Shown: positions 20,358-25,866 of the stretch, piece by piece
Layout: every line of letters begins with the position of its first letter
Position numbering within the stretch: the first letter of the stretch is position 1
Source: Alphaproteobacteria bacterium
GTDB taxonomy: Bacteria > Pseudomonadota > Alphaproteobacteria > Sphingomonadales > Sphingomonadaceae
DNA: 64,000 nt
Direction of reading: 5' to 3'
NCBI GenBank assembly: GCA_030431875.1
Contig: JAUIIG010000009.1
Span: 1 to 64,000, forward strand
The notes under the pieces: generated by a model
Databases searched by the model: none
What the model was told of the DNA's origin: nothing
The model's input: only the letters and a program-made list of their open reading frames with translations
Made by a program: the position numbers and the translations under genes

Positions 20358-23252
20358 ATGGCTCTCACCACTATCTCCGTAAAAGGCGCGCGCGAACATA
20401 ACCTCAAGGGGATCGATATCGATCTCCCGCGCGACAGCCTGATCGTCATCACCGGGCTCTCCGGATCGGGCAAGTCGTCGCTTGCCTTCGATACCATCTA
20501 TGCCGAGGGGCAGCGGCGCTATGTCGAGAGCCTCTCCGCCTATGCGCGGCAGTTCCTCGAGATGATGCAGAAGCCCGATGTCGAACATATCGACGGGCTG
20601 TCTCCCGCCATTTCGATCGAGCAGAAGACGACGAGCCGCAACCCGCGCTCGACCGTGGCGACGGTGACCGAGATCTACGACTACATGCGCCTGCTCTGGG
20701 CGCGGGTGGGGGTGCCCTATTCGCCCGCGACCGGCCTGCCGATCGAGGCGCAGACCGTGTCCAACATGGTCGACCGGGTCATGGCCCTGCCCGAAGGCAC
20801 GCGGCTTTACCTGCTCGCGCCTGTGGTGCGCGGCCGCAAGGGTGAGTACCGCAAGGAGCTGGCCGAGTGGCAGAAGGCGGGCTTCACCCGCGTGCGCATC
20901 GACGGCGAGATGTACGCGATCGAGGACGCGCCCGCGCTCGACAAGAAGTTCAAGCACGACATCGAAGTGGTGGTCGATCGCCTCGCGGTGAAGGAAGGGC
21001 TGGAAACGCGGCTCGCGGACTCGTTCGAGACCGCGCTCAAGCTGGCCGAGGGGCTGGCCTATGTCGACCTGGCCGACGGCGTGGTGCCGGGCCGCGAGGA
21101 CGAGGAAGCCGGCGGCGGCGCGATGAAGGGCGCGGGCATCCCCGCCAACCGCATCGTCTTCTCCGAGAAGTTCGCCTGCCCCGTCTCCGGCTTCACCATC
21201 GAGGAAGTCGAACCGCGCCTTTTCTCGTTCAACGCCCCGCAGGGGGCTTGCCCCACCTGTGACGGCATCGGCGAGAAGCAGCTGTTCGACCCGCAGCTGG
21301 TGGTGCCCAACGAGGAGCTGAGCCTGAAGAAGGGCGCCGTCGTGCCCTGGGCCAAGAGCAACCCGCCGTCGCCCTATTACATGCAGGTGCTGTCCAGCCT
21401 CGCGCGCGCCTACGGGTTCGACCTGGAGACGCCGTGGAACCAGCTGGAGCCGGACCAGCAGGACATCATCCTCTACGGCACCAAGGGCTATCCGGTGGAG
21501 CTCACCTTCAAGGACGGCCGCAAGGAATATACCGTGCAAAAGCCGTTCGAGGGGGTGATGGGCAACCTCAACCGCCGCCTCGCGCAGACGGACTCGGCGT
21601 GGATGCAGGAGGAGCTGGCCAAGTTCCAGACCGCGCAGCCGTGCGAGACCTGCCACGGTGCGCGCCTCAACGAGAAGGCGCGGGCGGTGAAGATCGACGG
21701 GACGGATATCAGCCAGCCCGTGCGCCTCTCCGTCTCCGACGCGCTGCACTTCTTCGAGACCCTGCCGGACAAGCTCTCCGACACGCAGAACCAGATCGCC
21801 CGCGCCATCCTGAAGGAAATCGTCGAGCGGCTGGGCTTCCTCAACAACGTCGGCCTCGACTACCTCAACCTCGACCGCACCAGCGGCACCCTGTCGGGCG
21901 GGGAGAGCCAGCGCATCCGCCTCGCCAGCCAGATCGGCTCCGGCCTGTCGGGCGTGCTCTATGTGCTCGACGAACCCTCCATCGGCCTGCACCAGCGCGA
22001 CAACGACCGGCTGCTGGAAACGCTCAAGCGCCTGCGCGACCTCGGCAACACGGTGATCGTGGTGGAGCATGACGAGGACGCCATCCGCGCGGCCGACCAC
22101 GTGGTGGACCTCGGCCCCGGCGCGGGCGTCCACGGCGGCGAAGTGGTGGCGCAGGGCACGCTGAAACAGGTGCTGAAGGCCAAGGGCTCGCTGACGGCAG
22201 ACTACCTCACCGGCCGCCGCAAGATCGAGGTCCCGGAAAAGCGCCGCAAGGGCAACGGTCACAAGCTGACGGTGCACGGCGCCAGGGCGAACAACCTCAA
22301 GGACGTCACCGCCTCCGTGCCGCTGGGCACCTTCACCTGCATCACCGGCGTGTCCGGATCGGGCAAGTCCAGCTTCACCATCGACACGCTCTACGCCGCC
22401 GCCGCGCGCACGCTGAACAACGCCCGCGTCATCGCCGGGGCGCACGACAAGGTGACCGGCCTCGAATACTGCGACAAGGTGATCGAGATCGACCAGTCGC
22501 CCATCGGCCGCACCCCGCGTAGCAACCCCGCCACCTATACCGGCGCCTTCACACAGATCCGCGACTGGTTCGCCGGCCTGCCGGAGGCGCAGGCGCGCGG
22601 CTACAAGCCGGGGCGCTTCAGCTTCAACGTCAAGGGCGGGCGGTGCGAGGCCTGCACCGGCGACGGCCTGATCAAGATCGAGATGCACTTCCTGCCCGAC
22701 GTCTACGTCACCTGCGAGGAATGCGGCGGCAAACGCTACAACCGCGAAACGCTGGAGGTGAAGTTCAAGGGCCACTCGATCGCCGACGTGCTCGACATGA
22801 CGATCGAGGACGCGGAGGGCTTCTTCAAGGCCGTGCCCCCCATCCGTGACAAGATGCACATGCTCAACGAGGTGGGGCTGGGCTATGTCAAGGTCGGCCA
22901 GCAGGCGACGACGCTGTCAGGCGGCGAAGCGCAGCGCGTGAAACTGGCGAAGGAACTGTCCAAGCGCTCCACCGGACAGACGCTCTACATCCTCGACGAG
23001 CCGACCACCGGCCTGCACTTCGAGGACGTGCGCAAGCTGCTGGAAGTGCTGCACCGGCTGGTGGACCAGGGGAACTCCGTGGTGGTGATCGAGCACAATC
23101 TCGACGTGATCAAGACCGCGGACCACGTGCTGGACCTTGGGCCTGATGGTGGCGTGCGCGGGGGTGAGGTTGTCGCGCAGGGTACGCCGGAGGAGGTTGC
23201 GAAGGTTGAGGGGAGCTATACGGGGGCGTATTTGCGGGGGATGTTGGGGTAG
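20358..23252 (+). CDS. uvrA: Excinuclease ABC subunit A
   Basis: Two Walker A ([28 protein letters not shown]), zinc motifs, [16 protein letters not shown] / [15 protein letters not shown]. Confidence 0.98.
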
Positions 23253-23335
23253 AAGTAGCCTTGCATCGAATTGCACTTGTAAATCGTTGAAAATACGCGA
23301 ACGGTGGTTTGGAATTGTGTGCATGCGAGGTTGAA

Positions 23336-23530
23336 GTGACGGAAGAAGAAAAGATTGTTCGAGATATTCAGACCCTTCGTGAATCAATTCAATTGGCCGC
23401 GAATGAACTTTTCATCTCGGTTACGCCTGCCGGAAAGCAAAGCGTACGGGTTCAAATAGATTTGCTCCAAAAAGAGCTTCTCGAGCTTCTAGTTCGACTT
23501 GATGAAAGTGATCAAAGTGTGGAGAGTTAA
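23336..23530 (+). CDS. Small hypothetical coiled-coil-like protein in AT-rich islet
   Basis: GTG start 7 nt after gaggt-like RBS; 64 aa VTEEEKIVRDIQTLRESIQLAANELF...; convergent with the TIR-like gene. Confidence 0.45.
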   Translation: MTEEEKIVRDIQTLRESIQLAANELFISVTPAGKQSVRVQIDLLQKELLELLVRLDESDQSVES

Positions 23531-23572
23531 CACCGTTAGCTAGAAATCGGCGTACCCCAGTGCGGTCAATGC

Positions 23573-24685
23573 CTAAGCTGCCTGTACCTTGACCAAGCCC
23601 AGCCCGACTAACTCTTTAAGAATCTCCAGTGCTTTACTTTTTATTTCTCCCTTGGCGAATGTGATATACCCTAAATCACTGAAGTCAGAAGGGAAAACAA
23701 CGCCATCCTCTTTGAGGATGATTATCTTTGTTTCATACAGAATGCTGGCGGCCCCCAGTTCATAGACTGCGTTTTCACTCGGGCGCCAAATTTCTATATA
23801 CTCCTCAGAGCCTTTTTCTTGCTTAAAGAACTGCTCATCCTTTGTGAAAACGAAAATGCCAGCACTGCATTCTTGCATCAGTTTGGCGACTTTTCGAGAG
23901 ATAGGCTGACCAGCATTAGGTTCGTCAATAGCAACTTTGTAAGGTATCTTGAACTCATCCAAGATTTTCTTGAGTTCGTTAAGGGGCGCATGACTCTTCC
24001 CGTGGGCTACAAACAATTGTTTCGGCTTCGTGGGGGCGGACGGCTCACTTGACTCATTTCCCTGTGCAGAAGGTGTAAGCACGCTTTGGTCTATGGTTGG
24101 CGTTTCATCAGGTTGACCAGCCAAGTCGGGAGCAAGTTCCTGATTGGCGATATTTTGCGATTGACCATTTTCGACCGCGTTTAACCTCACATATTCAGCA
24201 CCGCTGATTGACTGAATAATGCCTACGTAACGTGCATTCTCAAGAAGTACTTCGACAAATTCAGAAGTGAGAGTTGAATGAATGCCGAAAGATTTCTCAA
24301 GAGTATTTTCCAGGAACTTCGGGTCTGGAAGCTTGTTTTTGTCAAATTTTTCAAGAACTCGCCGAAACGGCTCAACACTAAGGATTGCCTGAAGCTTCCC
24401 CTGATTTATATCTGAATGGCTCGTTGGCTTGAGAATCTTTGATGCTAGGTCAGTTAGGCTAATGTTCTCAGCTTTTTCAGTTCCCGTCGTAAGGCCATAA
24501 AGGCGGGAGCATGAGAGCAGCAATTTGAATTCGCTGCTACTTGGCGTTCGGCCAATTGCATCAGCGACCAAGAGGCGGTCCATCGGTCCGCCTGCTCCCT
24601 TTTCCACTATCGCTTCGGCTATCACTAGTGACTTCTCTAGTGAGCGGCGAGGGTAATTACGTTGGATTTTCGAGTTATTGGCCAT
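23573..24685 (-). CDS. TIR-like domain protein (predicted nucleotide-binding, Cap12/Pycsar-effector type) with N-terminal helical domain
   Basis: C-terminus KQLFVAHGKSHAPLNELKKILDEFKIPYKVAIDEPNAGQPISRKVAKLMQECSAGIFVFTKDEQF...SENAVYELGAASILYETKIIILKEDGVVFPSDFSDLGYITF matches the PF10137-type pattern; low GC against surroundings. Confidence 0.82.
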   Translation of the reverse strand: MANNSKIQRNYPRRSLEKSLVIAEAIVEKGAGGPMDRLLVADAIGRTPSSSEFKLLLSCSRLYGLTTGTEKAENISLTDLASKILKPTSHSDINQGKLQAILSVEPFRRVLEKFDKNKLPDPKFLENTLEKSFGIHSTLTSEFVEVLLENARYVGIIQSISGAEYVRLNAVENGQSQNIANQELAPDLAGQPDETPTIDQSVLTPSAQGNESSEPSAPTKPKQLFVAHGKSHAPLNELKKILDEFKIPYKVAIDEPNAGQPISRKVAKLMQECSAGIFVFTKDEQFFKQEKGSEEYIEIWRPSENAVYELGAASILYETKIIILKEDGVVFPSDFSDLGYITFAKGEIKSKALEILKELVGLGLVKVQAA

Positions 24686-24864
24686 GCTTCATTGTTTCCA
24701 CTAGTTCTTAAAGGTCAAGCATTTTGCTGAGATTGCAGCATAATTTGGTGGAAAACTTCGAGAATTCCGACAAGTGCAAATCAAATTGAATCGCAAGGTT
24801 TCCTACACCCCCCAATCCATGCCTCCCTGCGCGGTCCTCTCAACCGCACAGGCACACTCACGGC

Positions 24865-25866
24865 ATGACTTCCATCTCCACGCTCTCGCCACTCCAGCAG
24901 GCACAGCTCAATCCCGGCGACTTTCCCGATCCTGACGATCCCGGCACCTACCGCTCCGCCGCGCGGCAGCAGGTGGCGCTGACGCCCGCGCGGATGGCGG
25001 ACTTCCTTGAGAGCCTGCAGGTGCTCGGCAATGTCTCCATCGCCTGTCGGCGCGCTGGCGTGGCGCGGCAGACGGCTTACCGGGCGCGGCGGCGCTCGGC
25101 GGGGTTTGCGCGGGCATGGGATGCGGCGCTGGTCGCGGCGCGGACGGTCGCCGAGGCGGAGCTGGCCGAGCGCGCGCTCAACGGGGTGGAGGAGGCGGTC
25201 TATTACCACGGCGAGGAGGTGGCGCGGCGGCGGCGCTACGATTCCCGCCTGCTGCTGGCGCACCTCGCGCGGCTCGACAAGGCGGCCGAGCGGCTCGACG
25301 TCGCGGCCACGCTGCATATGCTCGACGACCAGATCGATGCGCTTCGTGCGGCGGGGGATCGCGAGGTGGAAGTGCTGGAGGCAAAGGTTGCGCCGGATGC
25401 CCTTCGACAGGTCCAGGACGAGCGGGACCTCGTTCGCGACCCCAAGGGGTTTGCGGAGCAGCGCGCGGTTGCCGAAGAAAAGGCAGTGCTTCGACAAGCT
25501 CAGCACGAACGGGGTGAGGGTAGGGAGGTTTCCGGTCAGGACACTGTCACACCTGTCACACCTTGCCCGGATTGCGGGGGCTTCTGCATCGACGCGGCTG
25601 CCGATCCCAAGGTGCGGCTGACGCAGGAGGACTGCATGTGGCTGGGCAACCGGCTGGACCGCATGGACGCCGCGCGTCCGCGCAAGGCCCTGCGCCCGTT
25701 CGAACTCGATCCCGATGGCGATCCCGATGGCGAGCTGGAGGCGATCCAGCTGATGGCCTTCGAGGACGGGATCGAGCGCTGGTGGGAGATGACGCTCCCC
25801 GAAGACGAGGACGAGGAGGAGGAAGACCAACCCCCGTTCGCCTCGAGCGAAGTCGAGAGGCGCTAG
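24865..25866 (+). CDS. HTH-containing hypothetical protein (phage terminase small-subunit-like N-terminus) invaded by REP-like repeats
   Basis: GNVSIACRRAGVARQTAYRARRRSAGFARAWDAAL; in-frame repeat-derived RQVQDER and RQAQHER; C-terminus FASSEVERR derived from a hairpin repeat. Confidence 0.65.
   Translation: MTSISTLSPLQQAQLNPGDFPDPDDPGTYRSAARQQVALTPARMADFLESLQVLGNVSIACRRAGVARQTAYRARRRSAGFARAWDAALVAARTVAEAELAERALNGVEEAVYYHGEEVARRRRYDSRLLLAHLARLDKAAERLDVAATLHMLDDQIDALRAAGDREVEVLEAKVAPDALRQVQDERDLVRDPKGFAEQRAVAEEKAVLRQAQHERGEGREVSGQDTVTPVTPCPDCGGFCIDAAADPKVRLTQEDCMWLGNRLDRMDAARPRKALRPFELDPDGDPDGELEAIQLMAFEDGIERWWEMTLPEDEDEEEEDQPPFASSEVERR
25400..25425 (+). repeat. REP-like short repeat, copy 1 (intragenic)
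   Basis: cccttcgacaggtccaggacgagcggg, similar to copy 2 at 25488. Confidence 0.6.
25488..25514 (+). repeat. REP-like short repeat, copy 2 (intragenic)
   Basis: tgcttcgacaagctcagcacgaacgggg; same reading frame as copy 1. Confidence 0.65.

Follow-up and report, generated by a model that had tools for sequence, protein, structure and literature searches.

A candidate single-gene TIR defence system at a variable site behind uvrA in the Sphingomonadaceae

A gene for a 370-residue protein with an unannotated N-terminal domain and a C-terminal TIR domain of the CAP12/Pycsar type lies next to the 3′ end of uvrA in the window (the whole 64,000-nucleotide stretch of DNA that was analysed). We think it fairly probable that this TIR gene is a horizontally acquired single-gene anti-phage system, probably of the abortive kind, in which the TIR domain would be the NAD+-consuming effector, with the N-terminal domain as its sensor or switch. 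The uvrA flank itself is a family-wide variable site, at which nearly every member carries a different small imported cassette, often an anti-virus one.

Results and Discussion

The TIR gene and its islet

The 370-residue ORF claimed by an earlier note on this DNA is present at exactly the positions given there, on the minus strand, with an ATG start and no internal stop (Table 1). A chance ORF is excluded by the closest homologue, which is 74% identical over nearly the whole length and belongs to another genus (L001, the same contig as G1083:C5, from an uncultured Sphingomonadaceae bacterium). In L001, too, the TIR gene and uvrA are convergent, with their 3′ ends facing each other. The AT-rich islet described in the same note is the sole low-GC stretch of the window. 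Its GC content is ~46%, and the only five 300-bp bins of the window below 53% GC are consecutive (23401 to 24900), while the remaining window is 61–70% GC.

Table 1. Features of the uvrA flank and of the TIR gene, in window coordinates.
Feature	Position	Strand	Basis
uvrA, core gene on the left of the hotspot	20358..23252	+	ORF; conserved in genus and family
AT-rich islet, in place of the cargo that usually separates uvrA from the next conserved gene	23258..24820	.	GC profile; comparison with 20 congeners
Possible 64-aa ORF between uvrA and the TIR gene	23337..23531	+	GTG start, GAGG upstream; uncertain status
Gene for the 370-aa TIR protein (N-terminal domain and CAP12/Pycsar-type TIR)	23573..24685	-	ORF; PF10137; 74% homologue in another genus
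TIR domain, residues ~221-364	23594..24025	-	PF10137 at residues 224-344; profile and Foldseek matches to TIR-STING
Codon of D334	23684..23686	-	Aligned with D110 of SfSTING, the dimer-mate active-site residue
Codon of E309, candidate catalytic glutamate	23759..23761	-	Alignment to E84 of SfSTING; unchanged across four wHTH-TIR proteins
Linker, residues ~171-220, low-confidence, poorly conserved	24026..24175	-	pLDDT 27-41; alignment
N-terminal domain, residues ~12-170, unannotated, winged-helix-like, proposed sensor/switch	24176..24652	-	No Pfam match; recurs elsewhere; AlphaFold secondary structure
Conserved gene, usual right flank	24865..25866	+	Downstream of cargo in most congeners; terminase-small-subunit-like by eye

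The small ORF within the islet raises the alternative of a toxin-antitoxin-like pair, with the TIR protein as a toxin that is restrained by the 64-residue product, or by some other factor, and that kills when released on infection. The ORF is plausible as a gene, with GAGG ahead of its GTG, but the two genes converge and do not form one operon. Moreover, phmmer found no homologue of it in any fetched locus, including L001, where the TIR gene is present without it. For lack of homologues, it was rejected as a conserved partner, and we regard a toxin-antitoxin arrangement as very improbable.

A 13-nt inverted repeat, 92% complementary, is located near the two islet edges (23268–23280 and 24770–24782). 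It is missing from L001 and is not found at both cargo edges in congeners. Transposon ends were rejected for the islet, since the repeat is not common to other genomes and is probably due to chance.

The TIR domain and a candidate active site

Pfam reports a single match for the whole protein, to PF10137 (CAP12-PCTIR_TIR) at residues 224–344, with an E-value of 5.5e-14 and a score of 52.6 bits against a curated cut-off of 24.7. A profile built from this domain and related TIRs matches the solved structures of TIR-STING/Cap12 (E 1.7e-12) and PycTIR (E 4.6e-6). The best Foldseek match is also TIR-STING (9lmq, E 7.5e-5, probability 1.0), obtained with a full-length AlphaFold model of moderate confidence (mean pLDDT 63), whose TIR half is mixed, with the best stretches at ~70–80. 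The three methods agree on a TIR fold for the C-terminal module and on its assignment to the PF10137 class (Cap12/Pycsar), both of which had been proposed beforehand from the sequence, and profile and fold place it nearest to TIR-STING.

The active site of SfSTING includes S10, R78, N80 and the catalytic residue E84, and is completed by D110 of the dimer mate when the TIR domains pack (PMC9402430). Upon alignment, N80, E84 and D110 correspond to N305, E309 and D334, and R78 corresponds to S303. The catalytic glutamate had previously been sought in the motif SENAVYELG; the motif is correct, but the residue is its second glutamate, E309, and not its first. Four wHTH-TIR proteins all keep E309 and N305, and the two distant ones among them have asparagine in place of D334. 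With E309 and N305 kept, but R78 changed to S303 and D334 variable, NAD+ catalysis by this domain appears plausible, not certain. NADase activity cannot be assumed, since R78 is a substrate-binding residue in TIR-STING.

The N-terminal domain

No Pfam family matches the N-terminal half (residues ~12–170). It is the better predicted half of the full-length model, with pLDDT values of ~75–87 for residues 11–110. The model contains helices at residues 16–30, 37–43 and 51–62, a short strand, a helix at 79–85 and a second helical set at 90–154, an arrangement that is consistent with one or two winged-helix units. In the PDB, neither profiles nor Foldseek found a significant match, and the model of the isolated domain is poor. 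Thus, the earlier description of this region as winged-helix-like stands as far as the helices and small beta element of a moderate model go, and was not confirmed by the PDB searches.

Sequence profiles detect the domain in the stand-alone proteins L004, L006, L008, L010, L011 and L012, with weaker matches in a second stand-alone group (L015–L020). In L013, it is fused to a Nuc_deoxyrib_tr-like domain (PF05014, below the curated cut-off). L134, another TIR protein, also contains the domain (domain E about 1e-28), and L131 is a borderline case (E about 0.01) that brings the wHTH-TIR proteins to four. The region thus appears to be a separate module that is reused with another effector, as a sensor would be, and its joining to different effectors suggests a sensor or switch role. 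The fusion to the deoxyribosyltransferase-like domain (L013/L120:81-962) is an AT-rich gene at a contig end. A stand-alone distant relative (E 5e-5) is located in the uvrA slot of another genus (L112:73-825, minus strand; also L085).

A regulator would also be compatible with some of these features. Its winged-helix half would bind DNA and a catalytically silent TIR-like half would sense a nucleotide, as the winged-helix-like N-terminal half and the loss of the R78 counterpart might indicate; the stand-alone proteins in other genomes could be regulators as well. The invariance of E309 and N305 among wHTH-TIR proteins and the many effectors and enzymes among the slot-mates of the gene (see below) argue against this interpretation, which we consider distinctly improbable.

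Distribution of the TIR gene

The TIR gene has no match in the 39 congeners searched, and proteins with PF10137 occur in 13 of 201 genomes of the family. Two homologues are located at the uvrA-flanking hotspot filled with defence genes. The gene of L134 is a solitary AT-rich gene elsewhere in its genome (47% GC, in a region otherwise mostly at 64–74%), and close to that of L131 is a gene for what looks, by eye, like a type I restriction subunit. The gene is therefore sporadic, with homologues in defence contexts, in line with the defence role first suggested for it.

Neither phages nor viral contigs contained a match to the TIR protein, and the plasmids searched contained none to the N-terminal domain; the one plasmid match to the protein spans the TIR only. 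On this basis, we rejected phages and plasmids as the home of the gene. Viral contigs likewise yielded no further TIR relatives. Single proteins that combine, by reading, a cyclic-nucleotide-binding domain with a PF10137 TIR (L127, L128, L129 and L130) are found in several genera of the family.

A variable site at the 3′ end of uvrA

In 20 congeners, uvrA is followed by the cargo, usually by a conserved gene next, and then by rlpA and argG. The cargo is mostly AT-rich and differs in nearly every one of these genomes. Bins below 53% GC are concentrated within the slot interval (113 of 179, vs 2 of 372 beyond it). Within ~1.4 kb of the uvrA stop, 49 of 58 genomes of the family have a 300-bp stretch with a GC content of 53% or less; the 58 take in 28 further family genomes, nearly all from other genera. 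With fixed core flanks (uvrA on one side, rlpA/argG on the other) and variable content in 20 congeners, the site behaves as a core defence hotspot. We found no description of a uvrA hotspot in the open-access literature (subscription papers were outside the search).

Cargo with recognisable domains includes Septu PtuA (L053), HEC-03B (L056), an N6/N4 DNA methylase (L058), a BglII endonuclease (L059), an OLD-like ATPase (L060), AbiLi/AbiLii (L063), GmrSD_N with FRG (L066) or GmrSD_N (L071), a HATPase_c_3 protein that reads as MORC-like (L067), NACHT proteins (L069, L104 and L109), DRT8 (L105), a dGTPase (L106), Schlafen AlbA_2 (L107), PDC-S49 (L111) and PDC-M38A (L114). PADLOC matches with E-values of 1e-5 or better were obtained for 14 of 20 cargo proteins vs 1 of 10 chromosomal neighbours (Fisher p 0.005), which indicates enrichment in defence genes; this ratio is biased upward, as the first ten cargo proteins had been selected with knowledge of their Pfam domains, two cassettes each contributed a pair of proteins, and some matches are weak. 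The sole match among the neighbours is UvrA itself, to an ATPase model. We consider the defence association of the TIR gene to be well supported by this context, although evidence from location is indirect.

The uvrA flank might instead be a general landing site for foreign DNA, with the TIR protein in another, non-defensive role. Some cargo is indeed not recognised as defence, e.g. a Tle1-like phospholipase (L070) and, by eye, a transposase-like remnant (L052). Given that known defence families account for a large share of the cargo and that the protein itself belongs to the TIR class, we attach little likelihood to this explanation.

Several of the sampled slot cassettes matched no convincing known family. 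The AT-rich cargo of L054, L055, L057, L061, L062, L065, L068, L101 and L113, for which Pfam and/or PADLOC gave nothing convincing, provides candidates for unknown defence systems, and the slot behind uvrA is a simple address for harvesting small candidate defence cassettes across the whole family. In three slots with different cargo (L001:7402-7866, L108:3445-3849 and L110:3373-3795), a small protein that reads as GIY-YIG-like recurs on the cargo's distal side.

Movement of the cassettes

In 12 of 58 genomes, the intact uvrA is followed further downstream by a second, partial uvrA 3′ end, whose best match is usually the uvrA of another genome. These partial copies suggest that cassettes may arrive by recombination in the uvrA tail. 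Examples are found in L079, L081, L083, L084, L040, L035 and L050. The duplicated tails make the movement of integrase-poor defence cassettes directly testable.

Other routes were considered. An att-like motif common to the sites behind the uvrA stop was rejected, as no 8-mer occurs in more than 7 of 58 genomes, and no common terminal repeat was found. GC3 is lower at the 3′ end of uvrA in 51 of 58 genomes, which is not decisive as proof of imported tails because argG also falls, more weakly (21 of 30); rlpA shows the reverse. A gene-transfer-agent route was set aside, as the source genome contains no PF13547.

Proposed function

In the mechanism that we propose, the N-terminal domain, probably of winged-helix type, would bind a phage-derived or infection-dependent ligand, either nucleic acid or protein, and the ligand-bound domains would bring the TIR domains together. 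The packed CAP12-type TIRs could then cleave NAD+ using E309 and D334 from the neighbouring chain, and the loss of NAD+ would halt growth before the phage matures. Oligomerisation as the switch has a precedent in TIR-STING, where the D110 of the mate completes the active site upon packing (PMC9402430). The gene would represent one interchangeable cassette in a defence slot that extends from uvrA to the conserved genes upstream of rlpA-argG.

A nucleotide messenger upstream of the TIR protein is argued against by the lack of a detectable CD-NTase, STING or cyclic-nucleotide-binding domain. A messenger could also act downstream, as in Thoeris: the N-terminal domain would sense the phage and the TIR domain would make a cyclic ADP-ribose-type signal from NAD+ for a separate effector. 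Some bacterial TIRs are reported to produce such signals (PMC11312562), and the receptor could be encoded elsewhere in the genome. On the other hand, the islet contains no second conserved gene, the nearest TIRs belong to the effectors TIR-STING and PycTIR, and no ThsA-type STALD domain (PF18185) was found in the genome by a weak search that gave no positive among control genomes. Such signalling seems improbable to us, and we favour direct action of the TIR protein as effector.

If this proposal is true, the protein would be a compact TIR immune receptor, with sensor and executioner in one polypeptide, so that a search for its trigger would need just this gene and a panel of phages. The unannotated N-terminal domain, reused with another effector, offers a handle for finding more systems. 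A broader scenario, which we put forward as speculative and rather doubtful in its entirety, is that this domain founds an uncatalogued family of messenger-free phage-sensor modules with different effectors (TIR; deoxyribosyltransferase-like), and that the 3′ end of uvrA serves the whole family as a single exchange slot, whose integrase-less defence cassettes are moved by uvrA-tail recombination.

Comparison with known systems

The TIR-STING/Cap12 proteins of CBASS (SfSTING; 7un8, 9lmq) are the best structural and profile match to the TIR protein, which shares their CAP12-class TIR and keeps the catalytic glutamate and the adjacent asparagine. In contrast to TIR-STING, it lacks a STING domain, carries its TIR at the C-terminus behind the unannotated domain, and has S303 as the counterpart of R78. 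As far as CD-NTases are concerned, our searches agree with the earlier note's statement that no nucleotide cyclase is visible nearby. The neighbouring ORFs, and thus the operon, contain no CD-NTase, and the genome contains no SMODS domain (PF18144) by a search that was positive in control genomes; the source assembly consists of 91 contigs and is about 96% complete, so a partner could be encoded elsewhere. A CBASS partner for the protein was rejected on the basis of the SMODS result. Neither STING nor SAVED was detected, PF10137 being the only Pfam domain in the protein.

PycTIR of Pycsar (PDB 8jsj) belongs to the same Pfam TIR family, PF10137. Unlike PycTIR, the protein described here has no cyclic-nucleotide-binding domain detected by Pfam; by reading, no pyrimidine cyclase was seen among the neighbouring ORFs.

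The best PADLOC match of the TIR protein is the candidate single-gene system PDC-S35 (E 1.9e-14), which consists of stand-alone PF10137 proteins. Both are single genes with a C-terminal PF10137 TIR. However, the match is not full-length and covers essentially only the TIR half (residues ~190–364), whereas canonical members match far better, e.g. L005 at E 5.8e-78. The open-access literature yielded nothing on PDC-S35.

Core defence hotspots have been described as cDHS1/2 of Pseudomonas aeruginosa (PMC10250203) and hotspot 37 of E. coli (PMC10121019). Like these, the uvrA site is a fixed slot between core genes that is mostly occupied, holds diverse defence cargo and often has no evident mobility gene. 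It differs from cDHS1 (1–224 kb) in holding mostly one or two genes, and from all of these hotspots in being common to many genera of a family and in the partial second uvrA 3′ end in 12 of 58 genomes. Precedents thus exist for TIR effectors (PMC9402430), for stand-alone PF10137 candidates (PDC-S35) and for core defence hotspots (PMC10250203, PMC10121019), and what is new here is the pairing of an unannotated N-terminal domain with a CAP12-type TIR.
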